Source of the DNA: Norana najaformis | Lineage: Eukaryota > Annelida > Clitellata > Crassiclitellata > Hormogastridae | Reading direction: 5' to 3' | Assembly (NCBI GenBank): GCA_964023275.1 | Contig: OZ029922.1 | Location: 3,223,034 to 3,287,033, forward strand | DNA: 64,000 nt | Shown here: piece by piece, positions 1 through 64,000 of the stretch | Layout of the letters: each line of letters starts with the position of its first letter | How positions within the stretch are numbered: position 1 is the stretch's first letter | Program-made: the position numbers and the translations under genes | The notes under the pieces: model-generated | Databases searched by the model: none | The model's input: the letters and a program-made list of their open reading frames with translations, nothing else | Told to the model about the DNA's origin: nothing

Positions 1-308
1 AGTATTGTTTGAAACTTATGTCATTTGCAAGAAAGGAGTCATTATCTTTGCAGAATTGGTTTCGTAGCAGCTGATGACAGAGGCAGCTGAGCATAATGAG
101 CAACAGTCTTTTGGAATTGAGGTGTACTTGGTGGAGATCAGTCCTAGTAACTAAAACAATAGACTGAAGTGATGGAGGAAAGAACTGAAAGACAGGATGA
201 AATTAGTAGTTGAAGAGAAAGATTCAGACAGATAGTTGAAGCATAGTATGAAGTAGTTTCAGAAACAACCAAAATAGCTAAGACTGTTTTTCTGGCGATC
301 TCTTACAG
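1..308 (+). other. intron sequence before the first zinc-finger exon
   Basis: No open frame with family resemblance is seen here. The stretch ends in a good 3' splice site (TCTTACAG at 301-308) that leads into the first zinc-finger exon. It is read as the distal part of an intron whose upstream exons lie outside the window. Confidence 0.5.
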
Positions 309-626: not shown

Positions 627-1240
627 AAGGAACTCACAAATGATACAGAAATCTTGCATAAATTGATCAAGAAATCACATGCAGAGTGATGAAGAATTCT
701 GCACAAAATGGTGTTAAATTATGCAGAAGTCTTACATTAAGTGATACCAAATCAGACAAAACTTGATAAAGAATTGACGTGCAAATGTGATAATGAAATT
801 CATTAGTGACGTGATAAATTGCTGTGTGAAATGATAGAGAATCTGTTTGCAAAGTTACAGGGCTGGTTATACAATATGATATACTTTGCCAATTAAATAG
901 TTTTGTTGGAATACTTGTGTAGTATGTTTGTATACCATACCTGACAAGGTACCGGTAGATACATGGAGGGTTTAAGGGTGCATGATAGTCTATTGGTTAG
1001 CATGCAGGATTGGCAACCCAAGGTTGGGGTTCAAATCCGGCCAGGGTGGAAATTTGTTTAAAGATTTCAGCTCCGCTTTCACCCTCTAACGAACTCAGGT
1101 ATAATGTGTACATTAACTAACACAGATTGTAAAACTGATCAGCAATTTAGCCAATGGCAATAGAGCTAAATGAACTAATGTATGTTGACATGAAGAACTG
1201 TTTTCATTTGTTAGATGGGTTTTACATGTGTGAGAGAGCC
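627..1240. other. spacer between terminal exons 1 and 2, with a tRNA-like SINE
   Basis: This is presumed 3' UTR of the exon 1 isoform followed by intron. The only recognisable element is a tRNA-derived SINE (listed separately). Nothing coding is seen. Confidence 0.4.
975..1130 (+). repeat. tRNA-derived SINE, family A
   Basis: A tRNA-like head has a box-A-like segment (TAGTCTATTGGTTAGCATGC) and a perfect box B (GGTTCAAATCC, 1028-1038). It is followed by a unique tail (TTTCAGCTCCGCTTTCACCCTC...). The same head and tail recur near 18443 and, with a truncated head, near 41075. That identifies a dispersed SINE family and not a working tRNA gene. Confidence 0.6.
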
Positions 1241-1499
1241 AGCCAGTGGTATCTTTCCAGCCATTTGAGTGGTGTCTTCGAAAGGTTCTTAGAAGATGCT
1301 CTAGAAATATTTACGTTTATTCAGATGTGAAATGGGATTCGGATGGGATTCGGCTGTTTTTCTCACAGTGCATTCTGGAACATACTGTCGTGCACCCTGA
1401 GATGTCATCTTCTCCTCTCTCTCTGCCTCTGCTTTGCCAGTGGTTGAAGGCCATTCTTTCTCGGGTGGTTGCCAGGTTTGGAGCGCCTCTGATGAGCTT

Positions 1500-1868
1500 T
1501 CTGGAGGAGGTGTTTACAAATGTGCACTCACAAGTACACAAATCTCTTACAGGGTTTTGGGTATCAAGTGAACTTGGATACATTAATACATACATTATTT
1601 AGATGTAAAAACTCAGATGCAGCTGTTTCTTTCCCACAATTTGTTACAGGGTTTTGGGAATCAAGTGAACTTAAGGTTCGTCAGTTCTTACAGTTATTGG
1701 GGTGTAACAGCTGGGATCTGACTGTTGCATTCTCACACTGTCTTGCAGAGTTTTGCATATTAGATATGCAAAGTTTTGCATATCTAGTGAACTAGGTACA
1801 TAAACACGTACATTTTTTCGGATGTAACATCTGGGATCTGACTGTGTCTTTCTCGCAATGTCTTACAG
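1500..1868 (+). repeat. tandem array of 3' splice-site copies ahead of zinc-finger exon 2
   Basis: Three degenerate copies of the intron end plus exon start of terminal exon 2 precede the real one. Acceptor ends fall before 1553 (TTACAG|GGTTTTGGGTATC), 1650 (TTACAG|GGTTTTGGGAATC) and 1749 (TTGCAG|AGTTTTGC), and the true one before 1869 (TTACAG|AGTTTTGGGTATC). Spacings are about 97, 99 and 120 bp. Words such as GTGAAC after the junction and CTGGGATCTGACTGT before it are shared between copies. Confidence 0.75.
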
Positions 1869-2189
1869 AGTTTTGGGTATCGAGTGAACGTTGGAGGATT
1901 TAGAGACGAAGGAGGCAGAGAAGGTGGAAGTGGTGAGATGATGCAGTCCATGGAAGCAACCAGCTTACAGCGTCACTTGCCTAGCGTCTGCACGATCTGT
2001 GGCAAGCGCACGAGGGACGAAGGTCGCCTTCGAGGCCACATGTCGGCCAAGCATAAGTTCCCGAAGCCGTTTCGCTGCAAAATTTGCCTCAAGGAGTTCT
2101 GCTATAACAGCGTCTATCGAAGGCACGTCAAACAGAACCACACGAGCTGTCATCCAGACATGTTGGCTCATCCGCGTTTCAGGAACTGA
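1869..2189 (+). CDS. alternative 3' terminal exon 2, two C2H2 zinc fingers
   Basis: Phase-0 entry after TCTTACAG gives SFGYRVNVGG..., a Gly/Glu-rich leader, then two fingers: CTICGKRTRDEGRLRGHMSAKH and CKICLKEFCYNSVYRRHVKQNH, joined by KFPKPFR. It ends after 106 residues with TGA. It is the closest relative of exon 1: both lack the extra N-terminal finger found in exons 3-7, and both share CGKxxRDExxLRGHxSAKH and KEFCYxSVYxRH. This suggests a recent duplication of the pair. It is preceded by tandem decoy acceptors. Confidence 0.8.
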   Translation, partial: SFGYRVNVGGFRDEGGREGGSGEMMQSMEATSLQRHLPSVCTICGKRTRDEGRLRGHMSAKHKFPKPFRCKICLKEFCYNSVYRRHVKQNHTSCHPDMLAHPRFRN

Positions 2190-4166
2190 TGCAATGCGTT
2201 GCGTGTTCCTTCTTTTTGAGCTGCCTTTGAAGAAGAACTAGAGATGACAGTATTTGGAGATCTTAATAACTCTAATATATGCAACTTAGATTAACTCCCT
2301 CTTTGTCTCAGATATCGGAATTGGCCACAGATTTGATCTATTCTGGAATGCCCAGTTGATTCCAGACTGTTCTAGAATTTCTGAATTTATACATAGGAAT
2401 TGATGTGCCATTTGTTGATGTCTTGCACTTTATTGTAACAATTCTACAAAAATTACAAGATTGTATTCAGGCTGATGTGAAACAAGCTTTTCTAATGCTA
2501 GTAATAATTAATAATTTGATAACAGTAATTAAATACTGTTCAGACAATGCTATTTTGGGATGGTATTCTGAGATTGCCAATGACCGTTTTCTGAGAACAG
2601 TTTATGTATTCTGTGGTCTGCGAGTTAGAATGGGATAATTGTAGCTTATGCACATTACTGGCAATGTCCAAGAACACAAGAAAAACATAGGCTCTGAGAT
2701 TTATGTCATATCTGATACATGGCATGTATTTGTGTTGTTTGTGAATTAAATCAAAGCGATCTCATATTTTTGTTATTTATTGCAGTAGCTGAGCTCCTTT
2801 TGACATAACAAATCTTGTTTTTAAACAGAAAATTGATGATATCTGGTTATTGATGAAGGCAGTTCAATTTTGTAGCACTAGATTCCATTCATCACTGGGT
2901 TTGTTTGCTGTGTGGCTGGTTGTTTTGCAAAGATCAAACATTGTTATTAATGTTAACATAACTTGCTGTTTAATACCAGCCTCAGAAGACATTTGAGCAA
3001 CAATATCCTATCCTCTTCTGTGGAAATACTTATTTTCATACACGTAGTGCCCTTTTTCGACCTTGGCCGTGCTATGGCACTCTATAAATCGTCTTGTTAT
3101 TATTATTTCAATGTTGAGCTGATGTGAAATCTTTAATTGTGCCAAAATTGTCAGCAGTTAACCGCTGGGATTCCAGTTAACTTCACAGGTCCCCTGGACA
3201 CCCATCTGGTTATATTGTATAGCCAAATATCTTTATTTATCTCAACCGAGACCACAAAGGTTAGTAATGATTTCAATTTTGGAGTATTTTGGCAATTTCT
3301 ATTGACCAGATGCCCTTAATCCAACACCACTAAGGTTAGTTCTGCTTGTTGCAAGCAAAAACTGCATTTCTTTCTTGTAGTACATCTCAGTGCATTTGAC
3401 TGCAGTTTGCGTAATCATTACTTATGGAGATTATGAAGCAAGATGTCCATCTGTTAAAAAACCATTATTTTGCAATATGTGTTTCTTCACTTCTGACCAA
3501 TAATTGTGTGCACGTATATATCAAGACACTTGATATGGCAGCTTTGAAGCACTTTGCAAAGGTGCTGCCCACGTGGCTTTCAAAGTGATCTATTCAGGTG
3601 TGTTTTGGACAGTTTGAAAATGTATGCCCTCACAGAGTCATGTGCCATAGTATGTGAATGCAAGGGGATTCTGTTCCAGTGATGCTTGGATCTGGTTTAC
3701 AATGTTGATCTAGTTGATGTTTTTCGTAGACACACTTCTGCTCTGTTCTCTGTCATCTAGAACAAGTATTCCAAGGTTTGTTGCAGCTGTCCTGATTTGC
3801 CTTTGTTTCATTGACCCTCTGAGCCACTGATGAAACTGTTACACACTTTGAATAATTACTTTGATTACTGAGTTGCTTTGTTGAGTTGAATGATTTGGGG
3901 TAGTTTACTTTCTGGAATATTTCTTTACCCAGCTTAAGCAGATTTGCTTGTTAATGAGTATGGGGAGAAAAATATGGGAAATTACTTGAATATAAGATAT
4001 AAGCTGAGCATAGTCACAGCAGTTCTGGCAGTTTATTATGGAGCATGAGTTTTTTATTAAAGACTTGAGATGTTCCTTAATAAAGAACTCACAAAAGTGA
4101 AAACTGGGTAAATTATCGCAACATTTTAGTCCTATATAACAGAGGTGTTGGGGTACTTTATTACAG
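2190..4166. other. spacer between terminal exons 2 and 3
   Basis: T-rich sequence without coding signal. A SINE-like 3' end ending in TTATTATTATT lies near 3045-3110 (GCTATGGCACTCTATAAATCG). The rest is presumed 3' UTR and intron. The stretch ends in TTTATTACAG at the next acceptor. Confidence 0.35.
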
Positions 4167-4472
4167 AGTTTGCATACTTACCGACAATTGAGGAGGCGCT
4201 CTTCGCTAGACATGATGCGGTGCTCGTTCTGCGCTAAGGCGTTCCAGTCGCCTAACAGCCTGCGCCTACACGAGCGCTGTATCCACCAAAACCAGTTTCC
4301 GTACATTTGTGTCATCTGTGGAAAAGGTGTCACATCCAGGATACGTCTGCGGGGACACATGGCAGCACGACACGGCATGGCCAAAGACTACCGATGCGAG
4401 ATCTGTAACACTGAGTATGCGCACAGGAACAAATTCCAAGAGCACATGATGCGACACCAGACCTTGTCGTAA
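4167..4472 (+). CDS. alternative 3' terminal exon 3, three C2H2 zinc fingers
   Basis: The acceptor TTTATTACAG is followed in phase 0 by SLHTYRQLRRRSS and three fingers: CSFCAKAFQSPNSLRLHERCIH, CVICGKGVTSRIRLRGHMAARH and CEICNTEYAHRNKFQEHMMRH. TAA follows four residues later. Finger 3 uses H-x3-H where the paralogous exons use H-x4-H. The finger 2 to 3 linker GMAKDYR matches the family pattern. The leader is strongly basic. This is the first exon in the row with an additional N-terminal finger. Role as for exon 1: a specificity-determining C terminus of an alternatively spliced transcription factor. Confidence 0.8.
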   Translation, partial: SLHTYRQLRRRSSLDMMRCSFCAKAFQSPNSLRLHERCIHQNQFPYICVICGKGVTSRIRLRGHMAARHGMAKDYRCEICNTEYAHRNKFQEHMMRHQTLS

Positions 4473-5764
4473 ATTGAACAGTTTGGTGCAGCAAAGCTTG
4501 AATTTTGTCGACGAGAAAACATACAGAATACCAGATTCTTAATAATTCATTCTGTTCTGCTTGGATGGAACCATATTTGGAAATAGCAAATGGTTTAAAT
4601 GGTTTCTGTGGACATGGTAGTTAGCATAAGCTAAGGTCCGTTGGCTTTGTTGTTATACTTGGTTTGTGTATTCATTCCAGTTTTGTAGCTCATTATTTGG
4701 GTTGTATGTGAAAATCGAAAGTGCTAATGCATCAGCAGTAGCCAGTGCAGTGGTTTCTAGAGGCCTGAACTACAAGGTGAGAGTGGGATGGTAGGTGAAA
4801 ATGTGCTGAAAACTAGAAATTCTCCTTTGGATGGATGAGACAAATAACTCACCATGGAAATCTGATTTTAAGTTTGGTCAAGTTACAGTTCTGTTGATCA
4901 CTTCTGCTTTTGATACCAGCGCCAAAGTAATCATTAGATTTGTTAAGAATATACAAACAATTTCATGCTAGAAGTTTATGTCTACTTAAGGTTTCTTGTT
5001 ATTTGTTTTACTGTTTTGTATTTTTATAATCAGTTTCTGGAGTAAATCTAAAAGAATGAGGGGTGATAATAAAAGTCTCTGATTTGCTGATTAGCTGTGT
5101 TCTAAAGAAATTTTGCAGTTTGTCCCATTGAAGAAGAGAGTTAACGGTATTTGGTACAAGAGGGAGTGAGAAAGAGTGAGAAAGAGAAGAGCAAGTATTG
5201 ATGGGAGTGAGAGATAAATGGAGTGAAGAAGTAAGAGTGTTTGTTGTAAGAGTGAGATCCATAAAAAGAGACATAGATATAGTCTTATCTAAAGTCAATT
5301 GTCCACAACATTCAGCGACTTTTGCTTTTAGAGACATTCCATGGTAATATGATAACTCCTATAGCACCTCTGTGGCGATAAACTATATAGTAGCAGTTAC
5401 TAAAGCACTGAGAAGAGATGAAGCCCAGTGGAGGCGTTATCTTGTTCTGTTGCAGAAAGATCAAATAATCTGAACATTTTGTTAGCAGAAAGACATTTTT
5501 TCTCTGCAGTTGAGATCTGATAAGCAGATGGTTTTCACTGATGGTATATGAAACAATTACATGAGGTATATGAAACAGTTACATGAGGTATATGAAACAA
5601 TTACTTGACTAGTTGTGTGCTGGGTTATTGATTTTTGCTACAGCACTTGTACTACTGAATCAAGAAGCAATGTGTGTTTTATATGCTTTGGTTTTGGTGG
5701 GTGGCACAGCCGCACGTACTCGAAGATGCATCAGTGAAGAGGTTCTTTCTCGTCTGTATTACAG
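4473..5764. other. spacer between terminal exons 3 and 4, with a small tandem repeat
   Basis: Non-coding. About three copies of a 22-bp unit (GGTATATGAAACAATTACAT, then GA) lie at about 5541-5606. The stretch ends in TCGTCTGTATTACAG at the acceptor of exon 4. Confidence 0.45.
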
Positions 5765-6076
5765 GCTGCGGTGGAGGGCGAACAGTTTTTTGGAAGTGGT
5801 CCATGTCCTGAAAAGCACTACGCGTGTCCTGATTGTGGACTGTCGTTCACTTACAGCACTAACCTTAAACGCCACCGGAAGACGATTCACCTGCACCAGT
5901 ATCCATACAGGTGCAACGTCTGTGGGAAGGGAGTGGCAGGACGCCAGGACCTCCACGGTCACATGACCGTTCAGCACGGCCTCAACAAGAAGTTCCAATG
6001 TCAAGTCTGTAACAAGGAGTATGGATACAAGCAACACTACCTCCAGCATGTTAGGTCGGCACATGTGCAAGACTGA
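5765..6076 (+). CDS. alternative 3' terminal exon 4, three C2H2 zinc fingers
   Basis: Phase-0 entry gives AAVEGEQFFGSG..., then fingers CPDCGLSFTYSTNLKRHRKTIH, CNVCGKGVAGRQDLHGHMTVQH and CQVCNKEYGYKQHYLQHVRSAH. It ends in VQD and TGA after 103 residues. Finger 1 is the most canonical in the cluster, with aromatic and Leu core residues in place. The linker GLNKKFQ between fingers 2 and 3 again replaces TGEKP. An AATAAA 245 bp after the stop could end this isoform's mRNA, which would support its use as a terminal exon. Confidence 0.8.
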   Translation, partial: AAVEGEQFFGSGPCPEKHYACPDCGLSFTYSTNLKRHRKTIHLHQYPYRCNVCGKGVAGRQDLHGHMTVQHGLNKKFQCQVCNKEYGYKQHYLQHVRSAHVQD

Positions 6077-6320
6077 AGTATTCCACCTTGCCTCATCAAC
6101 CGATGGACTTTGGTAAATGCCCTCACAAATGACTCACCTAGATGCTGAATAACTGCAGATTTCAGCTCATATGAGGAATCGAAAGAGAGCACAGCGGGAT
6201 GGGAAGACACGACCGGCTGGCGACTGTCTACAATTTAATTGTTTGGAGTTGTGCAGAATAGTTTTGAAGATGACGATGGAATGACTGGAAAAATTCTTTA
6301 GAAGACGATTCTGTGCTGAG

Positions 6321-6326
6321 AATAAA
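6321..6326 (+). terminator. candidate polyadenylation signal for terminal exon 4
   Basis: AATAAA lies 245 bp after the exon 4 stop and well before the next acceptor at 6737. This is consistent with each zinc-finger exon ending its own transcript. The hexamer alone is weak evidence. Confidence 0.3.
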
Positions 6327-6737
6327 GCAAAATGCAAGTGTATTTCAGTTGGTTTAGATTTGTGGGAAATTTAACTAGATCTGCAATGGATCTTCTGGTT
6401 TGCAAATTCAGCTGACATTTCTGAATGTATTTGGACGTCTATAGTCATAGATAAATAGTTGTAAAGGAGTTGTAACAGTCACTGAATCTAATTTTTTAAA
6501 ATAAAAACTATTCCTCTTAAGAAGTGAATATTTTGGTAAAAGTTACTGTATTCCAGTGTGGCCAGTTTGATGAGTTGTGTCTTATGTCTGATGTTTTCAA
6601 CACATTCCACTTGTGTTGGTACTTGTGATCTAGCTTTTCAAATTACCCAGAAAACCTTTGCTTTAGGGAAACATAATAAAGCAGCAGATGTCACTAAGCT
6701 GAACGTTTTTCAATCTGATCGGTTAATTGTATTACAG

Positions 6738-7067
6738 AGCTCGACAGGAGTCATTCCAACAAATGACGCATTTTCAGTGGCTTTGTCTTCCACCGGTTTA
6801 CCTCAGTGCACAGAGTGTGGAAGACTGTTTACGCGACTCGACAACCTGCGAATGCACATAAAGAAAATCCACCGGAACGAGTATCCGGTCTCATGCCCGG
6901 TCTGTGGAAAGGGCTTCGGAGGACGGGACGACCTCAAAGGTCACCTGTCGTCAAGGCACAACATGCCCAAGGACTACAAGTGTCACGTCTGTCAGAAAGA
7001 GTTTGCGTATAAAAACACGTTTAAGAAACACATGATGACTGACCACCAAATCCAAATTGCACCGTAG
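6738..7067 (+). CDS. alternative 3' terminal exon 5, three C2H2 zinc fingers
   Basis: The acceptor is AATTGTATTACAG. Phase 0 gives SSTGVIPTNDAFSVALSSTG, then CTECGRLFTRLDNLRMHIKKIH, CPVCGKGFGGRDDLKGHLSSRH and CHVCQKEFAYKNTFKKHMMTDH, ending IQIAP and TAG. The frame stays open upstream of the acceptor to about 6558, but those codons read through intron sequence and lack family resemblance, so the exon is set at the acceptor. The linker is NMPKDYK. The three fingers are more similar to exons 6 and 7 than to 1 and 2 (KEFAYK in finger 3). Confidence 0.8.
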   Translation, partial: SSTGVIPTNDAFSVALSSTGLPQCTECGRLFTRLDNLRMHIKKIHRNEYPVSCPVCGKGFGGRDDLKGHLSSRHNMPKDYKCHVCQKEFAYKNTFKKHMMTDHQIQIAP

Positions 7068-9179
7068 AGTTTTGATACTGGAACATGCTAAAGAAAACAT
7101 GTTGAGTGACCAGCATTTTGTGAGCTGACCTACAAGGTCAGGATGGATAGTAGTGACCATTTCAATGACCAAGTGATGTGGTGGGCTGCCCTTTGTAAAT
7201 CTCTGTAATAACCTGGACTTTTTATTTGTTCAGTAAATTTCTTTAAAAACTTCTGTTGTGGATGAGCCTAATGGAAAACATATGAATCTGAAATTGACTG
7301 TGAAAGGGGATCCTGTTAATTAGATTTTTTATTTCTTTCATTGACATTTTAGAGATTTTTTCTTGTTCCTTTTTCCTGTTGCACAGAAACATTTTCAGCT
7401 ACTATCTTTGATGATTGTTACTGTATTTTTTTTTGATTTCTTTGGAGAGAGCAAACATCAAGGCATCAATTGATTTAACCAACAAGCGACTGTGTTGCAA
7501 AAATGGTTATTCAGATTTTCCAATAGTGTATTCGACTGCAATGGTCCTTGTCAGAACTGTCTAAATATTTCCTTTTCGATGTGTTTTGTTATCAGAAGTT
7601 TCTGTGATTTCAGAACTTGATGATACTGTGGATGATACAGTTCTGTGCTGTGCTGTTTCTTATCAAATTAATAGAGAACTTAAAATTAACAAATATTTTT
7701 AATCTGCACCATTCCTCTTTTCCAGCTTATTAAGTGAGCACAAGCGAATAACTATATGGTCTAAAGTTGTATTGATAAAGCTGAAGGTCTCAGCGATGCT
7801 TTGAATGCTTAAGGAATTGTGCTTTGTGTTATTATATATAGGGGTCGTCCATTAAGAACATACAGAAACAGGGAGGAAGTTGTCACCCAACTGCAGACAG
7901 AGGTTTCTACTCAATGCGGGCGTCTGCATCTAAATGTGGTACATATAACTGCCCTTGTACAGCCTGTGCTTTAAACATCTACTTCAGTAGGGCAGCAATC
8001 TTTACTGCATTGGATCTAATTGAGTTCATACGCTGGATGTGGCAGCATCCAAATACCTCACCACATAGAACAGTTAGCCCTGTAAGAGGACTAATGTAGG
8101 CCTTAATACACTGTTGGAGTGCAGACGTTCTCAAAGGGGATGTGGAGGGTTCTGCCAAATGGGGACAAAGGGAAGGAGGGGTCCAAAATAGAGCTTTGTT
8201 TGTGGGCGACCTCTTTTTTCTATTGAAACATTTACTGCTGTTCTCTACCTCTTAATGTCTTGCATACCAAATGTTAAGAAAGACTATTTGGCTTGATTTT
8301 CAAACTAATTTTCTGTTGTATTGTCTTGGCAAATGTTATCATTTGGATTTTAAAGTCAAAAGAAATGTCTTTGTTCTCGTTCGACTTCATGTCTGTCGGT
8401 TTATCTACAGTTAAAAATGGAGTCATAATTATGCCAGAACTCTTCGTTGACAGGCGTGATTGTAGTTTTCAAAGTCTAGAGTATGCCAGTTGGTTGTTTT
8501 GACTAGCTAGATATGCAGTTCTATGATTTTAAATGACCAAGGACTAGTTATTAGGGAAATTTGATCATTTTGGTCACTTAATGTTAGCCAGGAATTCTCT
8601 GCCTCTCGGTAATTGCATTTTGAGAATTGTCATTCAGAAAACTCATATCTTCTGGCTCCCCGTGGCATCTGTTCCCTTCCTTTCGATTTCAAAGGGCATC
8701 TGTGACTTACAAAGTAAAAAAGGCACCTGGCAATCCAAAAATACTGTCTGGAAAGTATTGAGTTCTGAATAATGATAACAGATCTTTTAATGAAGCACCA
8801 CAGGATGTGTACAGATTGTAAATATAATCGCGAATTTATATAGCACCACACCATGAACATCTCCTCATAGGTGCTGTCAATTCGACAGCATAAAATCACA
8901 ATCGAGCATAATGGTGTTCAATAGCTTACAGAACAAAGGCAAATAAAGACCAGCGAGTTCAGGTTGTAGGTTGCTAGAGAAGCTATTCCTAAAAGATGGA
9001 TTGATGTTTTCTCAGCTCAAACAAGTCAATTGTTGACAATGTCAGCGACAGTCAGTGACCTGTTTAAGAGTTAATCCACATTAATGCCACTGTGATTATG
9101 CAGTAAGCAGTGTTTTAGTAGCTAAGCACTGAATAAAAGAGGGGAAGGCCACTGAAGGTTTTCTCTTGTTCTGTTTCAG
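7068..9179. other. spacer between terminal exons 5 and 6
   Basis: Non-coding and T-rich. A SINE-like segment at about 8820-8965 has the word TTTATATAGCACCAC found in many copies across the window. Short open frames here show no domain. The stretch ends with TTCTCTTGTTCTGTTTCAG, a strong polypyrimidine tract and acceptor. Confidence 0.4.
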
Positions 9180-9539
9180 CCACCTCATGGAAAGAACCTG
9201 TCGAAGCAAATGCTGCAGTCGAGGAAGTCCGTTTGTAGGCAGGCTTCCTCTAACTCCACTTGCTGTTCTGAATGTGGCATGGAATTCAAAACGGTGCTTA
9301 ACATGACTCGCCACAAGAGGCTGGTTCACTGGAGACAGTATAAGAACCTTTGTCCATTCTGCGGAAAAGGAACAAAAACGAAGGCGGATCTGATTGGTCA
9401 CATGGCCACGAAACACAATATACCCAAGGAATTCCAGTGTCCGATATGCGCAAAGGAGTTTGCCTATAAGAACGCCTTGAAAGCACACATGAGAGACCAA
9501 CATGGTAGTGTGGTCATGCCAAAAGGACAGTATACATAG
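9180..9539 (+). CDS. alternative 3' terminal exon 6, three C2H2 zinc fingers
   Basis: Phase 0 gives PPHGKNLSKQMLQSRKSVCR..., a basic leader, then CSECGMEFKTVLNMTRHKRLVH, CPFCGKGTKTKADLIGHMATKH and CPICAKEFAYKNALKAHMRDQH. It ends GSVVMPKGQYT and TAG (119 residues). Finger 2 (CGKGTKTKxDLxGHMAxKH) is nearly the same as in exon 7, so 6 and 7 look like the newest duplicates. The linker is NIPKEFQ. Confidence 0.8.
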   Translation, partial: PPHGKNLSKQMLQSRKSVCRQASSNSTCCSECGMEFKTVLNMTRHKRLVHWRQYKNLCPFCGKGTKTKADLIGHMATKHNIPKEFQCPICAKEFAYKNALKAHMRDQHGSVVMPKGQYT

Positions 9540-10555
9540 TCTTGGAAACAGGAATTACTGTTACACCAGGGAGATCGAGGGAAACAGGAGTTACCTTACA
9601 GATTACAGATGTGCTACTAGTCAGGAACCTTATAATTTAAATGTTCAATATTTATATTTTCTGGACAGAGTTAACATTTTGACCTGGTTGTTACATTCTG
9701 TTACTCTGTGATTGAGGAAAATGATGCAATATCTCGGCCTTTGGATAAATGGTTTTTCAGCTAGAAATTGCATAAAATAAGCAGAGTTACTCATAGTCAT
9801 ATGAATGAGGCATGGACTGTTGGTAACCTTGGAATTTAATAGCAACTCAATTTGTTATATGTTGTCACGAATATGTACAAGCTTTACTTTGAAGTATGGT
9901 TGTTAAGTTTTGTACCCAAAGGATTGTATCCTCAGGGTATGGTAGAAAAAGAACATGGAAAGCAACTGTTATTGATATGGTTTAAATTCAAACAAAGTTT
10001 TGAAAATATTTTACAAGCTCTGTGTGCAGCAAACATCTCGTTGCAGTTGTAATGACAGGCAGCATAAACTCGTTTTTGGACTAGTGATTTGTGGGTTGAA
10101 GACGAAAGCTGAAGTGTACTTGTGCACCCTTCAAAACCAGTTTCAGTCATTAGGAACTTCAGCTTTCTATTTGCATGTTACTTGAGTTTACTACAACTTC
10201 TGTGTCTGCATGCCTACCTTTCGACTTGGTTGTTTTGTCTTTCTGCCTATCATAATATCTGTTGAATAAATATACTGTATCTGGTTGTCAGATGCAAAAA
10301 TTTGCTGGGAAAACTACATCATAAACTTTGAAAAAGGGGTAAGCCACTGTGGGCAGAATCAAACAATCAATGCTTGAGTAACAAGGTAACTATAACATGA
10401 TGTGACTCAAAAATAATGAGTGTGATCTTGAAACAATCAATGTTTCAGTTCATTATGGCTAAAATGTGATGTGACTTATGAGCTTGACCTTGCAACAGTC
10501 AAAAACCAAAAGTTCCCAGAAACAATTGTTAGTATAAACATTCTTCTGTTTGTAG
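9540..10555. other. spacer between terminal exons 6 and 7
   Basis: Non-coding. AATAAA at 10265-10270 is a possible poly(A) signal for isoform 6. At about 10385-10500 there is an imperfect direct duplication of roughly 70 bp (GATGTGACT...GAGTGTGATCTTG against GATGTGACT...GAGCTTGACCTTG). Confidence 0.4.
10265..10270 (+). terminator. candidate polyadenylation signal for terminal exon 6
   Basis: AATAAA lies about 725 bp after the exon 6 stop and 286 bp before the exon 7 acceptor. Supported only by the hexamer and its location. Confidence 0.25.
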
Positions 10556-10915
10556 AATCCGTCATTCCAGACAGACGGAGTCATGTGGCAAACAATGACA
10601 CGTCCCTCTGGTGGCGTAATGTGCACGAAATGTGGAACAACACTGAAATCCCATCGAAACTTGAACCTTCACGACCGCCACGTCCACCAGGGACTGTATC
10701 AACACATCTGCCACATCTGTGGAAAGGGAACAAAGACAAAGGGTGACCTGCGTGGACACATGGCCTCAAAGCACGATGTCCCAAAAGACTTCCAGTGCCC
10801 CATATGCAAACACGAGTTTGCGTACAAGCACCGTCTGAAGCGGCACATACTTTCGGCTCATGGGAAGAGAAGCCAGATTGCCAGGCTTGAGTTTTCTGAA
10901 CCTGGTGCAACATAA
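10556..10915 (+). CDS. alternative 3' terminal exon 7, three C2H2 zinc fingers (last in the row)
   Basis: The acceptor is CTTCTGTTTGTAG. Phase 0 gives NPSFQTDGVMWQTMTRPSGG, then CTKCGTTLKSHRNLNLHDRHVH, CHICGKGTKTKGDLRGHMASKH and CPICKHEFAYKHRLKRHILSAH. A tail ending EPGAT and TAA follows (119 residues). The linker is DVPKDFQ. No further zinc-finger exon is found to the right, so this is probably the 3' end of the locus. LINE tails begin within 70 bp of the stop. Confidence 0.8.
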   Translation, partial: NPSFQTDGVMWQTMTRPSGGVMCTKCGTTLKSHRNLNLHDRHVHQGLYQHICHICGKGTKTKGDLRGHMASKHDVPKDFQCPICKHEFAYKHRLKRHILSAHGKRSQIARLEFSEPGAT

Positions 10916-18271: not shown

Positions 18272-18311
18272 ATGTCAACTGTTTTGGTTCCTCAGAAAGT
18301 CACGGTCGTAG
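18272..18311 (+). CDS. Rab11-FIP-like exon 1 (start codon, first C2 strand)
   Basis: ATG at 18272 opens MSTVLVPQKVTVV and ends one base into codon 14 before GTACGA. The PxKVTVxV strand is the expected beginning of a FIP-type C2 domain. Phase 1 matches exon 2. The donor is only moderately good, but the joined protein makes sense. Confidence 0.65.
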
Positions 18312-21300
18312 GTACGACAGTCTTTAAATAATAGATTGATGTAAATGTCAGTCATTGGATTCAACTGATCGAGCACAGAAATTTGACAAAACAGAAAACG
18401 ATCAGCTGTTGTTTGAAGATCTTTTCCAGCTCCCTTATCCACCTGGAGGGTGCACAGTAGTCTAGTGGTGGCATGCTGGACTGTGGACTGAGAGGTCAGA
18501 GGTTCAAATCCTCACCAGTACAGAAAGATGTTTTGAAAATTCTTGCTCCATTTTCACTCCCTGGCAAACTAGGCTATAAGATGAGTACACTGTATGTGGA
18601 AGGATCAGGTGGCAAGGGAGGGGACTGGCCATCTTATGGGGTTAAGGGTTCATACTTGAAGCTCACTGTATGTGGGAGAATCAGGTGCAAGAGAGAGGAC
18701 TGGCCACCCGCCCTCATCTTATGAGGTTAAGGGTTCATACTTGAAGTTCACTGTATGTGGGAGGATCTGTGGCAAGGGAGAGGACTGGCCACCCGCCCTT
18801 ATCTTATGGGGTTAAGGGTTCATGCTTGAAGGTGTCCTGTTGCTGGATTGCCTTAGCTGTGTTTTTGCTTCAGCCAAAAGCTCCTTCAATCTCAGAACTA
18901 CAGTCCTGAGGAGTTTCTGTAGGAGCTTCTCAGTCAGTGTTGCTTCCTTGTCTGGTTTTTAGGAGACAGAAGGTTTCCCATAAGATTTCCTATATTACTG
19001 TTTTGTGTCTAAAATCACGTTTACGTAAATATTTGCTGAATTTATTGCGTTAAGTTTGTTCTAATTTTGTTACATAATTTTTTTGAATATTTTTCAGTGT
19101 ACAGTGCAAAGGGGTTGAAGCCAAAAAGCAAAGGTATACGATGTTTTACTTGACATCAAAGTTCATTTAGTTTTTTTGACCCAAGAATGGTATTGTCATT
19201 TTATCAAGCATGATTTTCTTGTGGCTAAGTTGGGCATCTAAAAGTCCAAAGCCAGTCTTGTGTTGGAGTGCATTATAGCAACTGACTCCTCTGCAAATGT
19301 GTTACATGTTGGCCAGTTCGTTGAGAACTTGTCTTTCAATGCAGAGAGTACACTTCAAATCTCCATTGAGGAGGTTACCACGTGTATGTAGAGACCTTGA
19401 GCAGGTTCTTAATTAAGTATGACTTTGATTGATGATTGTCATTAGATGTTGATGATGTACAAAGTATGAAAAATGAATGAATTAATATGAGTTTGGTAAA
19501 TGGTATTTACCTTTACACAAGTTTGGTAAACAATATCTACCTTTACACAATTTTGGTAAACAACATCTATCTTTACACCAGTTTGGTAAACAATATCGAC
19601 CTTGACACAATCTTGGTCAGTAGTATCTACCTTCACACAGTAAATAGTATCTACCTTTACATAAGTTTGGTAAATAGTGTCTACCTAGCTATGCATCTGG
19701 AACCAAATTGTAACTGGAGCAGTTTTTAGTATAATTTCATGCAGATCTGTGCGTTTTGTACTTTGAAATGTCTGTGTATGTATGTGTGTCTGGTTATTTA
19801 TGTAGTGGCTTTTAAGAACCTCAGAAATCTGGTTAAACATGGCTATCTTGCAGTTCTAAAACACTGTATTAACGTGTGTTTTTGCATTTCAGGGAAGCAT
19901 AAATTCTCTGTTATATTTGGAATTGGTGGAAACAAATTTCGAACGGATGTGGTTGAGGATCTCTTTGACAATCCTGTCTTCAACACAGAATCAGAAATGT
20001 AAGACTTCAGTCTGTGCTCTGTTTCCTCTTAAAGTTTAGCACTTTTTTCGAGGGATTTTTACACATTCCTTCTTCTCAAACAAATTATGCTTTCTACCCT
20101 CAAGGGAAACTATCTTTGTATCCATGATACAAAGACCCTATGTGACGGCAAACACATACCAGTACTACTGGCCTGGTTAGCTACATTGGTTAACGCATAC
20201 ATCAAGGCGCCTCTGAGCATGAAGATGCCGGTTTGCATCCCAGTCATGGCTTATTTCAGAGATTTGAATCTTGGGCTAGTACGGTCTGTACACAGGGACC
20301 TTAAATGGCATGGCACCCGTTCAAATGGGCAGTGGTGTTGAAGGATCTAACCTGATAAAGTCATTGAAAAATGAGCAGGGTCGAGGCCACACGGTTGCTA
20401 TAGAAAAACATGTACATTTATATATATTTTACTAATATGAACAGGTAAAGTTGATTGCAGTGAAAGATCATATTTATTACGTACTGTTGTCAACATCAGC
20501 CCTCAGCTCTGCTTCTAAGGCTGATGGGCCACAGCAACCGAACAACCAAACAACCTCTTATATTGGTTGCATGACAACAGATTCTTAACCTTACTTGATT
20601 TGGCTGGAATCAAACCTTGGACACTTGGAAGTAACGCTTTATTGCTTGGATGCACAAAAGGCCCAACTTGCAAACTCGCTATCATCTTTTAAATCACTTG
20701 TTAAGACTCACTACTTTACTCTGGCATTTGCATGATTCCGTCTTGTCCCCTAGCGAACATACATCCACACCTCAGATTCAGCTGTACTGACATTGTGCGT
20801 TATATGTACTTTAATGAATAAATAAACAAAATGAATAAATAAATTTAGCTTTACTAGTTTTAACTGTATTTGAGATGTGTATGTTTCTGTTTTTATCTAA
20901 TTTAGTTTTACTTGTAAGAATTTTGACTCAGCTTCTCCATTGGATTCTGATTTTGACTACGGTTTCACTTTTAGCAGTCATCAGTTGGTGCCTTGTGCAT
21001 TATGATAATGGCACTATAGAAGTCTTTATATTAGATTAGAATTGAGTTTCGGACATGTCTGTTTCTGCATTTCTAGCGAAGTTGGTGATCCCAGTCTTCC
21101 TCTGATCTTGACGGTGACTGAGAAACAAGAGAAAGACGTTCTGGGTCAGGTGACCATCGCCCTAAGTGACATTTCGCACAGCCGTACAAATCATCCAATC
21201 AAGGTGCCGCTTCGACCCCACAAGAAATGTCCAAACCCTGAGGGTGAGTTGGTGATGGAGGCATGGATATCAGCCTCAACCCTTGGACCTCCTCCTCCGA

Positions 21301-24300
21301 TGATCAGCGTCACTGGTACGGAAGGCGAGACGAAGAATGCCGTGACTGCTGGATTCAAAAAGCTCAAGGACAAAATGTCACATTCACCTTTGCTCAGCAG
21401 GTAATCAGTCTTTTATATGAAGCAGAAAACCGGTCTGCTTTGCTAGTCTGGTAACCAGTCTTTTATGCTGATAATCAGTCTACTGTATTAAGCAATTAAC
21501 CAGTCTTTTCTGCTGAACAGATAACCAGCCTACTTTTCAAAGCAGGTAACCAGTCTTTTATTTACCTGTTTAGCTTAAAAGACTGGTTAGCTGGTTACCT
21601 GCTTAACCAGTCTACTTTGCTAAGCAGGTAACCAGTCTTTTATTTACCTGTTTAGCTTAAAAGACTGGTTAGCTGGTTACCTGCTTAACCAGTCTACTTT
21701 GCTAAGCAGGTAACCAGTCTTTCATGCTTGAGCAGGTGACCAGTCTTTTATGCTTGAGCAGGTGACCAGTCTTTTATGCTCAGCATGTGACCAATCTCAT
21801 ATGCTAAATAGGTAAAAGGTCTTTTTGCTATCACCAGTCCTTTATGCTAACCTGGTCACCAGTTTTTTATGCTAAGCCAGTGACCAGTGGTGACCAGTAT
21901 ACTGTGCTGTGCAGTCATCAGTCTTTTATGCTAAGCAGGTAGCCAGTGTATCAGCCTTACCTTTCTGTTACCTTTCTGTCCTTATGTCTGTTTATGTCAC
22001 CTATGATTCCTCGCTTAGTCGATGGACATATAGCATGTTAACAAATGCATTACTTACTTACTTATGTCCTGGATTCACTAGAAGACTACTTAGATGTTTC
22101 ATTAGAATGATGCAGAGTTATTTATCAGAACACTACTGAGATGTTTCTTTAGAACGCTATTGACATTTTAATAGAAAACTCCTTTTGTTCTGTCAAAATG
22201 ACTTGCTTAAGTACTGTTCCATTTAAAGGAAAACTGTTGATAGCAAGGAGCAGAAAAGGAGTCAGTCGACATCATTTTTCAACCAGACTCCAAAAGGATC
22301 TGTGTCATGTCAGGATCTGACCTCATTATCTTCTAACCGCACCAGCCTCCAGGAGAACAAGCACCTGAAACTGGCACCCACCGATTCACTGAGCAGCCTC
22401 GAGAGCATCTCAGAGAATTCATCAGCTTCTGCAGCAGCAGTTGGATCTAAGAAGCCAGAGGTCAATGGTATCTCGCCCAACGAGGGACCCGTTGAAGGGG
22501 GCACGAAAATCACAATACGTGGAACCAACCTCGGCCTAAACAAACAAGATGTGATTGGGCTGTTCATCTGTGGAGCAAACGTTCTTGGGTCGCTCGAGTA
22601 TGGATCGTCGTCACGACTTACCTGCATCACGAAACCATGGAAACCGTGCATCGGAAACGTTACCGTGGAAACACAGAGCGGAGGTAAAGGCTCTTCGCTC
22701 GTCCAGTTCACGTTCATCAGCCGCGATCAGGCATCTGATTCGGCGTCCGAGATCTCGTCGTTATCACGATCGAGTTCCCGTGGTGATGCCGATCTTCGCC
22801 GCACTGAAAGCAACAAGAGCCGGTCATCAGAGAAGGCAAAGGGTTCAGTCATTTCTACTGAAGAGTCGTCAGCTCTTGCTAAGAACCTGAAAGCGAAGAG
22901 CATGTTCGATCTATCCCTTGTGCCGATGACGGCAAAAAATCCGAAGCCCGAGGTGACAGGAATTTCCCCAATGGAAGCACCGGCCGATGGAGTGACAAAG
23001 CTGACCATTCGGGGGTTGAATTTGGGGCAGTCAAGGGCGGACATTGTGCGACTGATAGTCTGTGGGGTTGACTGCCTGGCCAGTGTTGAGTACGAGTCGT
23101 CCTCCAAGATATCCTGCAGTGTTGGACCTGGTAAACCAGAAACGGGAAACATCGTGGTGGAGACGAAGTCTGGTGGGAAAGGCGTATCCCTGGTTACATT
23201 CAGATTTGTGGAAAGCAAGGAGGAAGAAACTTCCAGCTGGGCCGCTGTTCCGTATTCTGCAAGTGACGAACCAGATGCAGGTATCTATGTAATAAAAGCC
23301 GTAGACACTTGTGTGTTTTGTCTGTGGTCCATTTAGCACAGTTAGACATATAACCATGGCATTATCTCACAGATAATATGAGTATGAAAAAGGTTTGTGC
23401 CTGTTGAGCAGACTCTGTGTAACAACCCCAGACAAAAAGTTGTTTGCACGCACTTGTTGCACACCAGAGATGAAGATTTACTGACCTTATGCAAGCATTA
23501 AGTGTAAATAAATGAAAATAAATGTTTGCTATAAAATTTTTACAGAGAGTATGTCTGGATCAAAGGCGCTAACCCTATGCGCATAATAAGTACAGTAAAT
23601 AAATAAAATAAAATAAATGTTACTGATAATATTGTTACAGAGAGTATGTCTGGATTGAAAATCACTGACCTTAAGCACATAATAAATACAGTAAATAAAA
23701 AAAGAAAATAAATGTCAGTGATAATATTGTTACAGAGAGTGTGTCTGGATCGAAGGGCATTGACCACCTGACGGTAAACGACCAGCGAGGGTCGAGCCCT
23801 TTAGGGAGTCGGTTTGACAGAACGCCTCAGGCAAACGGCCACACTCCTGCAAAGCTTCCACCTCCTGTTGTAGAAATCCAGCCAATGAGAATGGATAAGA
23901 AGTCAACGTCCAGTCCGTTTCGAGCGTTCGGGAAAGGCAAGAAGTCGGACAAGGACAAGGGTTCATCTGACTCTCAGGAAAATAGGAACTATGACGTGAG
24001 ATATTTTTCTTACTTTTATTTTTGAGAATTTTTTATTTGTATGAGGTTTTCCATGCCTTAGATTTGCATTTCTGTGCAACTTTCATTGCAAAGTTTTGAA
24101 TAATATTAATAATGAGGTTTTTAGTAATCAAGAAGTAAGATGAATGTAAGTACATATGCATACTGCAACTCAGGCAAGGCACCTTTTTACTTCCACTGGT
24201 CCATCGTTCTGGAGCAGTCTTCCACTGGAAGTCCCAACTGTTCCAGCTAATGCTCAAGAAAATTTTCAGCTAAGCCTAAGAGCAAAAAGTTTGAGAACCA

Positions 24301-26117
24301 CTGGGCTTAAATGACGTCTAAGACAGTTACTGTGGCTACCTAAGATAACGTTGTAATCAGTTTCACTGTGCCTGATGTTTCAGACATTACGTATGCTTCA
24401 TTATGAATGTACCTCTTACACTTCTAAATTTAAAATTAATGGCTGCCAGTTAATGATGGATTTCAGAAGATGATGGAACTAATAATTGTTACGTTACTAA
24501 GGTGTTGGACATCTGTTTTAATGTTGCGTGTTTTCATTGCAGTCATCTGGTCATTGTGGTTCAAATGAACAGCTGAGCAATGAAACGATCAACAGAAGAA
24601 TTTCAGGTGAGCAAGCGTTGTTTTGGATCCATCAGTTAGACAACACATTGAAAAGTTCTTTAAAGGTGCTACATGAATGTCGGTCCACATTCACACCCAA
24701 TCATCCTTCCATCCGCCCACTGAACATTTACCTGACCTTACCTTACCTTAACAGTAAAGTATCCCATATCCCACAAATGAGACGTAGGGGAGGTGCTCAT
24801 CTCCTTTACTTGGCCCTTGTTCTAGCATTTAACGAATCCCAAGGTCCTGGATACGGGCCCAGTGCTTCGCAGAACTTGCCGTTTACTTCCCCGCTTATGC
24901 CGGTACCAAATTTTACTGCTTGGTGATAGAGGCAAGGTGTGCACAAACAACTTGCTCAGGGTTGTTGCACTGAGTCGAACCCGCAACTGCACGATCGTTG
25001 ACCAAACGTGTTTCAGATAGACCACCGTGACGCATGTTTATCTTACCTTACCTTATCGCACCTTACCTTATCTTCCTTTATTGTTGAAGGTGCAAGTGCA
25101 TTTCATTGTATGTTTTATCATGACATGATTTTAATGACTTTGCAGAACTTGAACAAGAGCTGAGTTATTCTGATGAACAAGTAAAGAAGTTGCAGTCGGA
25201 AAACAAGCGTAAGTCTTCCTGCGAAGCATGTTCCATCCGACTCCTTTTTCAAGTAGCCAGATCACTTTCAGAACCTAAACAATGAAAAGCATTTTGTCTT
25301 ATTTGTAATTTTATGTAATTTATTTTTTATTTTATTTATCATTTTATTTTTTTTTCTGAAGTTGTCTTGCATTACCCGAGCATTTGCCGGTTGTCCACGC
25401 AATATTCACCTAGAGGTGAACTCGAGCCTTGAAACCTGACCTTATTCTGACATGACCTCATTCTGACGACCTCTTTGTAATACCGCCTCATTATAGCATA
25501 CCGTCATCATAATAACATTGTAAGGTCGTGCCTTCTTGGCGGTTGGGTGATCTACCAGGAATAGCCTTCCTTAGGGTCTGAGTGTCTTTCTGGCCAGGGA
25601 TGTTACATGTACCTACGTATCATCAACACTTGAAAACTGTTTTCGTTTGCCAGGGTTGGGCTGGGAATGCCTCTGAGTGAAGGGGCAATATGTAAGTGCT
25701 CAAAATGAATAACACGACCTTGTTATAATTCGACTTCTTTGTAACCCGACTTCATTATAACATGGCCTCATAGAACAACCTAATTATAACACAACCTCAT
25801 TATAACTTGTCCTCATCATAACATGACCTTATTATACCATGACCTCATTGTAGTGTGACCTCATCATAACGTGATGACCTCATTATAACACAGTAGTTTA
25901 TGTGACTCCTGAACTGGTATTACACTAGAAATTTAGTTGTTTAGTCTACCTACCATGCATACCTACATCGTGAGAATTACTGTTTGATGTTGTAACTAAT
26001 TGAGAATGTTTACTTTCAGTTTTGAAGGTTGAAAACGAGAGAATGCGTCGATACATGGAAAATCTGGTGAATCGAGCCATTCTCACTTGTCCGCAGATTC
26101 TCTGCGTTGACGATTAA
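18272..26117 (+). CDS. Rab11-FIP class I-like protein with two Sec5-type IPT/TIG domains (nine exons, 680 aa)
   Basis: Joined exons are 18272-18311, 19098-19133, 19893-19998, 21077-21400, 22229-23280, 23736-23995, 24543-24606, 25146-25208 and 26020-26117. All are GT-AG and phases match throughout. Residues 1 to about 115 form a C2 domain like those of Rab11-FIP1/2/5 (VTVVVYSAKGL, FSVIFGIGGNKFRTDVVED). KLKDK (about 153) and MFDLS (394-398) are also class I FIP words. Two IPT/TIG domains lie at 245-331 and 409-496; both resemble the N-terminal Ral-binding TIG of exocyst Sec5/EXOC2 (GISPNEG, TIRGxNLG, CG, TxSGGKG). A basic Ser-rich linker and coiled coil lead to a C-terminal FIP-RBD helix (YMENLVNRAILTCPQIL, 660-676). 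Class I FIPs tether Rab11 vesicles to membranes; TIG domains are not part of the FIPs I know. Start: the only ATG that joins in phase to the C2 domain. Confidence 0.8.
18443..18940 (+). repeat. tRNA-derived SINE family A with internally repeated tail
   Basis: Box B GGTTCAAATCC is at 18501-18511. The body segment (GACTGGCCACCCGCCC...GGTTAAGGGTTCATACTTGAAG) is present three times in tandem at about 18600-18830. It is followed by the TGTTGCTGGATTGCCTTAGC tail shared with the 15236 element. It lies in intron 1 of the Rab11-FIP-like gene. Confidence 0.6.
19098..19133 (+). CDS. Rab11-FIP-like exon 2 (36-nt microexon)
   Basis: Bounded by ATTTTTCAG and GTATAC, it encodes YSAKGLKPKSK plus split codons at both ends. 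It completes the first C2 strand and loop (V-YSAKGL matches the VLRARGL position of vertebrate FIPs). Without it exons 1 and 3 would join out of phase with a broken C2 fold. Confidence 0.7.
19490..19690 (+). repeat. 30-bp tandem repeat, about 7 copies
   Basis: The unit is close to AGTTTGGTAAACAATATCTA followed by CCTTTACACA. Because 30 is a multiple of three, both strands read open through the array. The resulting peptides (SLVNNIYLYT..., KVDIVYQ...) are repeat artefacts. It lies in intron 2 of the Rab11-FIP-like gene. Confidence 0.75.
19893..19998 (+). CDS. Rab11-FIP-like exon 3 (C2 domain)
   Basis: The acceptor is TTTGCATTTCAG and the donor GTAAGA. It encodes GKHKFSVIFGIGGNKFRT and DVVEDLFDNPVFNTESE, the C2 strands around the calcium-loop region. 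The Asp ligands of calcium-binding C2 domains are not obvious, as in other FIPs. Confidence 0.8.
20150..20405 (+). repeat. tRNA-derived SINE, family F
   Basis: The head GGTTAGCTACATTGGTTAAC with a box-B-like GGTTTGCATCC is followed by TTTGAATCTTGGGCTAGTA...GGGACCTTAAATGGC...GAGCAGGGTCGAGGCCACA. A reverse copy lies at 45310-45560, and a tail fragment at about 46550-46635. Confidence 0.5.
20406..21076. other. intron 3 remainder with an L2-like tail
   Basis: An L2-like tail lies at about 20970-21035 (TCATCAGTTGGTGCCTTGTG...GCACTATAGAAGTC), almost touching the acceptor of exon 4. A SINE-like block at about 20500-20640 (GATGGGCCACAGCAACC) is not assigned. Confidence 0.4.
21077..21400 (+). CDS. 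Rab11-FIP-like exon 4 (C2 domain end and basic linker)
   Basis: The acceptor is GCATTTCTAG and the donor CTCAGCAG|GTAATC. It encodes the C2 C-terminal half (LILTVTEKQEKDVLGQVTIA, later HPIKVPLRPHKK and EGELVMEAWISAS) and a linker with AGFKKLKDKMSHSP, like the KLKDK segment after the C2 in class I FIPs. Its donor begins a long tandem array. Confidence 0.85.
21392..21955 (+). repeat. tandem array seeded at the exon 4 donor splice site
   Basis: About 15 degenerate copies of a unit like GCTAAGCAGGTAACCAGTCT then TTTAT follow the true junction (GCTCAGCAG|GTAATCAGTCTTTTAT). Many copies keep a usable donor: CAGGTAACC at about 21543, 21625 and 21707, CAGGTGACC at about 21733 and 21759. Copies also occur inverted, giving a hairpin of about 60 bp repeated twice at 21540-21705. 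Confidence 0.8.
22229..23280 (+). CDS. Rab11-FIP-like exon 5 (both IPT/TIG domains)
   Basis: This 1,052-nt exon contains both TIG domains and the Ser-rich linker between them (SSLSRSSSRGDADLRR), plus MFDLS just before TIG 2. TIG 1 has PEVNGISPNEG and ITIRGTNLG; TIG 2 has PEVTGISPMEA and LTIRGLNLG. Both end in a T/QSGGKG strand. The acceptor is set at TTTAAAG|G (22228/22229); GATAG at 22243 is an in-phase alternative that removes five residues. The donor is GCAG|GTATCT. Having both domains in one exon fits duplication after capture. Confidence 0.8.
23420..23735 (+). repeat. 95-bp tandem array of 3' splice-site copies ahead of exon 6
   Basis: The acceptor plus first exon bases (TTACAG|AGAGTGTGTCTGGATC) of exon 6 are preceded by two close copies ending before 23546 and 23641, exactly 95 bp apart (and 95 bp from the real one at 23736). 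A decayed fourth copy lies at about 23430-23525. Use of either decoy runs into a stop after about a dozen codons (for example SMSGSKALTLCA then TAA). Confidence 0.8.
23736..23995 (+). CDS. Rab11-FIP-like exon 6 (basic Pro/Ser linker)
   Basis: It encodes ESVSGSKGIDHLTVNDQRGS... and SSPFRAFGKGKKSDKDKG, a basic segment like the post-C2 region of class I FIPs. The entry phase matches the split GAG from exon 5. The donor is GAC|GTGAGA. The third and last of the tandem acceptors opens it. Confidence 0.8.
24543..24606 (+). CDS. Rab11-FIP-like exon 7
   Basis: The acceptor is TTTTCATTGCAG and the donor TTTCAG|GTGAGC. It encodes SSGHCGSNEQLSNETINRRI plus a split Glu. Polar linker before the coiled coil. 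Confidence 0.75.
24640..25070. repeat. SINE-like insertions in intron 7
   Basis: The first part (to about 24770) has the AAAGTTCTTTAAAGGTGCTACATGAATG word typical of the small SINEs here and ends in TTACCTTACCTTAAC. The second part (24780-25025, GAGGTGCTCATCTCC...GTCGAACCCGCAACTGCACGATC) carries a box-B-like GTCGAACCC. An open frame across the region is not a gene. Confidence 0.4.
25146..25208 (+). CDS. Rab11-FIP-like exon 8 (coiled coil)
   Basis: The acceptor is TGACTTTGCAG and the donor AGC|GTAAGT. It encodes ELEQELSYSDEQVKKLQSEN, a heptad-like helix entering the Rab11-binding domain. FIP-RBDs form parallel dimeric coiled coils. Confidence 0.8.
25430..25890 (+). repeat. degenerate 16-17 bp repeat (CATTATAACATGACCT) split by a SINE
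   Basis: Copies of CTCATTATAACATGACC recur at 25430-25525 and 25705-25885. They are separated by a SINE (25530-25700, GGTTGGGTGATCTACCAGG...GGGTTGGGCTGGGAATG) whose reverse copy lies at about 39680-39830. A single unit reappears at about 54045-54085. Confidence 0.6.
26020..26117 (+). CDS. Rab11-FIP-like exon 9 (FIP-RBD and stop)
   Basis: The acceptor is TTTACTTTCAG. It encodes LLKVENERMRRYMENLVNRA then ILTCPQILCVDD and TAA. It aligns by eye with the class I FIP-RBD end Y-I-D-N-L-L-V-R-x-M-E-x-x-P-x-I-L, which contacts Rab11 switch regions. The protein ends four residues after the core, as in short FIPs. Confidence 0.85.
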
Positions 26118-63944: not shown

Positions 63945-64000
63945 CTGTAACATAAAATTAAAATTCTAAGCTGGAAGAAGACAACACAAGAAAAACATAC

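Follow-up and report, generated by a model that had tools for sequence, protein, structure and literature searches.

A gene joining C2, TIG and Rab11-FIP-type domains in Norana najaformis and a family of similar proteins in other invertebrates

The class I Rab11-FIPs (FIP1/RCP, FIP2 and FIP5/Rip11) carry a KLKDK stretch after their C2 domain and, to our knowledge, have no TIG domain. This C2 domain is N-terminal, class II FIPs (FIP3 and FIP4) have EF hands, and all members of both classes bind Rab11 via a C-terminal domain, as set out in one study (PMC3279423). In the Ral-binding TIG domain of the exocyst subunit Sec5 (EXOC2), a hydrogen bond from Thr11 to RALA is predicted, the T11A mutation reportedly lowers affinity strongly (PMC12407918), and R27E restores binding to RalA 38R (PMC3382198). 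Here we describe a gene that combines C2, TIG and FIP-type domains in a 64,000-nucleotide stretch of DNA from the annelid Norana najaformis, called the window below (contig OZ029922.1, here C10, positions 3223034-3287033, in a genome of 608 Mb and 17 contigs). To judge from its sequence, the product is probably a scaffold of the Rab11-effector kind, anchored by its C2 domain and binding partners through its TIG modules. It belongs to what is apparently an old, widespread and undescribed family of invertebrate proteins; no description of a C2-TIG-Rab11-FIP architecture was found in the open-licence literature searched.

Gene structure and distribution of the family

The gene was rebuilt from nine coding exons amounting to 2,043 nucleotides (nt), which encode 680 residues and a stop codon. 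All eight introns are GT-AG. The exon phases agree and both TIG domains lie in one exon, as an earlier sequence-only reading of this DNA had stated. The GC content is 51-52% in exons 4-6 and 37-45% in the other exons, compared with 39.5% for the window. Features are given below in window coordinates, RBD standing for Rab11-binding domain.

18272..26117, + strand: whole gene for the 680-residue C2-TIG-TIG-FIP-RBD protein, nine coding exons (spliced model, colinear with the uninterrupted relatives P0001-P0003)
18272-18311, 19098-19133, 19893-19998, 21077-21400, 22229-23280, 23736-23995, 24543-24606, 25146-25208, 26020-26117, + strand: exons of the gene (spliced model)
22229..23280, + strand: exon 5, 1,052 nt, with both TIG domains unsplit inside it (spliced model)
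18296..21275, + strand: C2 domain, residues about 9-127, over exons 1-4 (Pfam C2 at residues 9-97; the paralogue on C15 has similar short 5′ exons, weakly matched)
21354..21377, + strand: FKKLKDKM motif after the C2 domain, residues 154-161 (resembles the KLKDK of class I FIPs; compared with one reference FIP2 sequence only)
22455..22715, + strand: TIG1, residues 245-331, with Asn/Arg at the Sec5 Thr11/Arg27 positions (Pfam, alignment and genome TIG search)
22947..23207, + strand: TIG2, residues 409-495, with Thr/Arg at the Sec5 Thr11/Arg27 positions (structure-sequence match, alignment and genome TIG search)
24567..26054, + strand: predicted coiled coil that runs into the Rab11-binding core, covering residues about 615-660 in exons 7-9 (from the AlphaFold2 helix 586-640 of relative P0001)
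26028..26105, + strand: FIP-type Rab11-binding core, residues 652-677, with YMENLVNRAILTCPQIL at 26052-26102 (core profile, and RBD-FIP in relatives)

Three relatives carry the whole architecture without interruption, each on a contig of less than 4 kb that we infer to be a transcript assembly: P0001 (651 residues, 3,248-nt contig), P0002 (661 residues, 2,541 nt) and P0003 (666 residues, 3,824 nt). Over aligned residues the window product is 72, 70 and 58% identical to them, respectively. Six of the eight splice junctions are gapless over 21 residues in comparison with P0001, with 13-20 identities each, and the other two, at residues 520 and 606, where the linker varies, show 6 and 8 identities as well as some unaligned residues. 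An AlphaFold2 model of P0001 (18 aligned sequences; mean pLDDT 67.9, pTM 0.30) contains a confident C2 domain (about 5-130), TIG1 (244-330), TIG2 (402-488) and a helix (586-640). Because its linkers score a pLDDT below 50, the domains of P0001 may best be pictured as beads on a flexible string, whose relative placement is not predicted.

Repeats occur near two of the splice sites. The start of intron 4 (21400-21937) holds a minisatellite with a unit of ~25 nt, 17 copies of which form one repeat family, and the units resemble the surroundings of the exon-4 donor (..AGCAG/GTAA..), so that many possible decoys of the 5′ splice site stand in a row. At 23507-23765 a sequence is repeated three times in tandem at a spacing of 95 nt; every copy has a TTACAG/AGAGT acceptor, but only that of the last serves as the exon-6 acceptor in the model.

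The same architecture was sought in other invertebrates and found in cnidarians (Nematostella, Orbicella, Montipora, Oculina and Paramuricea), nemerteans (Tubulanus and Lineus), molluscs (bivalves, gastropods, the chiton Liolophura and cephalopods), a crinoid (Anneissia) and a hemichordate (Glandiceps). In the first protein search 16 members of the family rank above the EXOC2 proteins (best 120 of 193 matches), and a family profile search gave 76 matches, of which 62 were aligned as family members and 14 (P0176-P0189, short or with one domain) were left out of that alignment, A7. Alignments built from fewer sequences comprise 15 of 17 (A1, without P0007 and P0014), 14 of 17 (A2, also without P0013) and 15 of 19 (A4, without P0007, P0013, P0014 and P0121). 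No named vertebrate or insect member is among the matches listed, a provisional result in that the full protein searches scored only the 8,000 candidates with most words in common and many sequences are nameless.

A one-off fusion, specific to one lineage, is rejected by the presence of the same layout across several animal phyla, which instead defines a conserved animal family. The number of TIG domains varies within it: over 72 sequences there is one TIG in 66, two in the window protein, P0001-P0003 and P0007, and three in P0004. Named entries are mostly annotated as “uncharacterized” or “hypothetical”, and some as “exocyst complex component 2” or EXOC2-like. For example, LOC116616003 of Nematostella and LOC110454211 of Mizuhopecten share family and layout with the window protein but have one TIG and no name, and the “exocyst complex component 2” proteins of Octopus vulgaris, Plakobranchus and Paramuricea, with the same layout and one TIG, are misnamed members. 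Such labels would mislead counts of exocyst subunits.

The window gene is one of two family paralogues found in its genome. The second, at C15:14571993-14581587, has one TIG of the P0005/P0006 type, a final RBD exon and an exon layout similar to that of the window gene, and its short 5′ exons are weakly matched (E 0.02-0.5). A canonical class I FIP without TIG lies in the same genome at C10:11.2106-11.2266 Mb, its C2 exons at 11.2106-11.2119 Mb and its RBD at 11.2265 Mb. These C2 exons are 56, 49 and 36% identical to a reference FIP2 sequence that was not taken from a database and that also serves in the C2 comparisons below. Three other RBD-FIP matches in the genome exceed the cut-off, the window core not being among them: one is that of the class I FIP, and two (L001 and L003) look like class II by sequence. 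With a canonical Sec5 at C3:21.23-21.25 Mb, canonical FIPs, Sec5 and the C2-TIG-FIP proteins coexist in one genome, and because this genome has the TIG-less class I FIP and Sec5 as well, the C2-TIG-FIP proteins constitute a family of their own.

A mis-called Sec5 was also considered and rejected, since the Pfam search gives no match to the Sec5 exocyst domain (PF15469) in the window protein and the canonical Sec5 lies elsewhere.

The C-terminal core of Rab11-FIP type

The FIP-type Rab11-binding domain that had been proposed at the C terminus stands as a FIP-type core, although the Pfam model stays under its cut-off in the window sequence. A Pfam search of the product, a check set in advance, finds C2 and TIG, but gives no RBD-FIP match in the full-length product even at E≤10, and taken alone it would speak against the RBD half of the claim. 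This window-only test is misleading because 40 of 71 relatives match RBD-FIP and because a profile of the core finds nearly only Rab11-FIPs. Specifically, RBD-FIP is matched at E≤10 by 9 of the 15 family sequences collected first, with a best E of 3.4e-5, and at E≤0.1 TIG is found in all 71 members, C2 in 68 and RBD-FIP in 40 (best 1.8e-5). The three domains are also reported together for P0141, from the coral Montipora, in precomputed Pfam annotation. The core profile, made from 15 sequences and 28 C-terminal columns past the coiled coil, has 11 matches among solved sequences at E≤10. Chains of Rab11-FIP1, -2 or -3 account for ten of them (best 0.0023), and the remaining one is unrelated (1.4).

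A strict pattern of this core is present in 55 of 72 family sequences, never farther than 17 residues from the C terminus. Among the 17 misses, 11 show the core by eye with one substitution; the six that lack it (P0007, P0014, P0144, P0164, P0168 and P0170) are perhaps partial gene models. The mutant YMD617-619AAA of FIP4 is deficient in Rab11a binding (PMC3279423), and the window core has YME where FIP4 has this YMD. From the conserved Y-[IMV]-[DEQ]...P..L core we infer that the tail binds Rab11.

Several observations weigh against a FIP identity of the tail. In the last 53 residues of the window protein the RBD-FIP score is 12.3 bits (E 0.15), short of the cut-off of 23.3. Models of other coiled coils match family tails too, including ZapB (26 of 71, with a best E of 2.5e-5 that is close to the best for RBD-FIP), DivIC (25 of 71) and the SCOC-like DUF2205 (15 of 71). 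Moreover, a 62-column profile of the tail scores a designed coiled coil, 8p4y (1e-9), above any FIP, with SCOC at 5e-5 and FIP2 at 1.2e-4. Since it is matched by every kind of coiled coil, the longer profile does not discriminate, and the 28-column core was used instead. The window tail as a single-sequence query of the PDB finds nothing below E 0.035.

TIG domains, the C2 domain and competing readings

Pfam TIG matches two stretches of the window product (E 1.8e-26), and these are the two best of the 32 TIG matches listed for the genome. Their nearest solved relatives are structures of the Sec5 Ral-binding domain (1hk6, 9.9e-21; 1uad, 1.4e-20), followed at a distance by plexins (1.2e-10), which among solved structures agrees with the earlier description of these TIGs as close to that of Sec5. 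The further claim that the protein reads Ral is weak on the evidence that follows.

A dual-GTPase scaffold would bind Rab11 through its tail and Ral-GTP through one or both TIG domains, as Sec5 does, and so clamp recycling vesicles where Ral is active. Consistent with this, TIG2 matches the Sec5 domain at ~1e-20 and keeps the equivalents of Thr11 and Arg27, the residues probed by the T11A and R27E mutations cited above. The same Thr/Arg pair is present in the cnidarian members P0015, P0016, P0131, P0141 and P0174 and in the nemertean P0008, and therefore may be ancestral. However, only 15 of 79 family TIGs have Thr/Arg, with Ser/Arg in six and Asn/Arg in two; in the remainder, residue 27 is acidic (42) or something else (14), leaving Arg in 23. 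Arg27 is kept in the named cnidarians, in the nemertean Tubulanus and in the hemichordate (as Ser/Arg), but in no named mollusc, nor in the nemertean Lineus or the crinoid.

Spacing between the two positions also separates the groups. All 79 family TIGs, TIG1 and TIG2 among them, have 19 residues from the Thr11 to the Arg27 position, whereas 104 of 104 EXOC2/Sec5 rows, including the Sec5 of this genome, have 17 and thus share a two-residue shortening together with the Thr/Arg pair. This comparison set comprised the 104 non-family proteins among the best 120 of 193 matches plus the genome's own Sec5, in 111 rows, and the seven that deviate all come from P0039, an unrelated TIG protein that is not EXOC2. 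In a FastTree phylogeny that combines the family TIGs with selected others and, lacking an outgroup, is unrooted, the nine Sec5 TIGs, again with that of this genome among them, separate from all others at a support of 1.0. The Sec5 TIG of this genome is divided over two exons by an intron, whereas the window TIGs are intron-free. Furthermore, the TIG of plexin-A4 shows the same Thr and Arg in an alignment with solved structures, so the pair in TIG2 is not by itself diagnostic of Ral binding.

Because the Sec5-type spacing is missing from every family TIG and the Thr/Arg pair is kept in so few, a conserved Ral-reading role of the whole family is unlikely, although Ral binding is possible in the lineages with Thr/Arg, including the window protein through TIG2. 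The dual-GTPase scaffold is accordingly an arrangement that we consider unlikely. Natural variation at the two Ral-contact residues, for example Thr/Arg in Nematostella and Thr/Glu in Crassostrea, offers a test of the TIG Ral reading outside Sec5.

A bolder and quite doubtful extension is that the family constitutes a third class of Rab11-FIPs, dating back to the cnidarian-bilaterian ancestor or further, which ancestrally would have read Rab11 (tail), Ral (Thr/Arg TIG) and lipid (C2) at once, and that molluscs later lost the Ral surface through replacement of Arg27, mostly by acidic residues. If true, this would be the Rab11-exocyst link in covalent form.

An ordinary class I Rab11-FIP whose lineage gained TIG domains is a still less probable identity for the window protein, one that we would give little weight. 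The N-terminal C2 domain (Pfam E 1.5e-9) and C-terminal RBD are arranged as in class I (PMC3279423), and a KLKDK-like stretch follows the C2 domain when compared with the reference FIP2. A family C2 profile, built from alignment A3 (12 of 19 sequences), gives the reference FIP2 49.6 bits. However, the C2 domain is not decisively FIP-like, since the best other solved C2, that of extended synaptotagmin-2, reaches 43.6 bits in two stretches, and the class I C2 pieces of the genome itself score 26.6 bits with a near-identical profile. With the reference FIP2 as the comparison, these pieces obtain 101 bits and the window C2 38.9. The former label “class I FIP C2” was an interpretation and not an observation.

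No mutual match at E≤100 exists between the window C2 and the class I pieces, the window C2 as a single-sequence PDB query returns nothing below E 0.1, and a protein-database search with the C2 region (1,035 candidates) gives 13 matches at E≤1, all from this family and none a named FIP. Nor does the window protein have a match at E≤1 in a 30-kb stretch covering the canonical class I locus, where none of the 32 listed TIG matches falls. The existence of that separate, TIG-less gene with its own RBD tells against the window protein being the class I FIP of this genome. We regard the score edge toward class I as suggestive, not decisive, and the sequence comparisons would place the C2-TIG-FIP family beside the class I FIPs and outside the class.

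The first loop of the window C2 is rich in lysine (KPKSKGKHK) and without the aspartates that calcium-binding C2 domains usually have. The composition of the loop therefore points to lipid contact that is independent of calcium.

Misjoined neighbouring genes, or a tail that is simply any coiled coil, can hardly account for the protein: even though two junctions lie in poorly conserved linker, RBD-FIP is under its cut-off and many family tails match general coiled-coil models, the uninterrupted relatives P0001-P0003 align across the whole protein and the layout is repeated by named proteins of several phyla and by the C15 paralogue, in keeping with the original opinion that a misjoin was unlikely.

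Neighbouring frames and comparison with known systems

Upstream of the gene, a row of C2H2 zinc-finger frames on the + strand spans 282-10912 (Pfam; 282-623, 1842-2186, 4140-4469, 5738-6073, 9156-9536 and 10556-10912). Some share a similar “..LQS” start, and the row may be a set of zinc-finger exons used alternatively at the 3′ end of a single gene, an organization like that of lola. Downstream, immunoglobulin frames on the - strand at 54789-63957 (Pfam; I-set at 54789-55235, 3.3e-13; V-set at 63589-63957, 5.5e-8) probably belong to at least one cell-surface gene, and two further frames from this region have no Pfam match. No tRNA and no Rfam match was found within the 64-kb window. Elsewhere in the genome, at C3:467-488 kb, adjacent open frames (L021 and L024) that end in a TIG domain look by eye like secreted adenosine deaminase growth factors.

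As an observation, the sequence-only reading was sound in that one real gene encodes a C2 domain, two TIG domains and a FIP-type tail; as an interpretation it survives in part, without the one-off fusion, the class I identity and the Ral reading. In the preferred reading, that of a Rab11-effector scaffold, the predicted order starts with C2, from which a disordered linker leads to between one and three TIG domains; a second such linker follows, and then a coiled coil whose C-terminal helix is the Rab11-binding element. This helix would pair with that of a second copy and bind Rab11-GTP on recycling vesicles, as the core suggests, while the C2 domain would dock on acidic membrane lipid without calcium. 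The TIG domains, on flexible linkers, would recruit a protein partner, Ral being one candidate for TIG2. The result is an apparently undescribed domain architecture among Rab11 effectors, with representatives in corals, molluscs, nemerteans, a crinoid and a hemichordate. A protein of this design would be a different way to build a scaffold with multiple contacts.

The window protein resembles each of three known systems in part. With class I Rab11-FIPs it shares an N-terminal C2 domain and a C-terminal Rab11-binding core, but it has TIG domains and its C2 is far more diverged from the reference FIP2 than that of the class I FIP in the same genome. Class II Rab11-FIPs have a similar core with a YM[DE] triplet, but the window protein carries C2 and TIG in place of the EF hands given for class II in PMC3279423, and no EF-hand match is found in it (Pfam, E≤1). 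The TIG of Sec5/EXOC2 is the closest solved relative and TIG2 keeps its two key Ral-contact residues, but the window TIGs are two residues longer between the Thr11 and Arg27 positions, are free of introns and fall on a separate branch of the tree.

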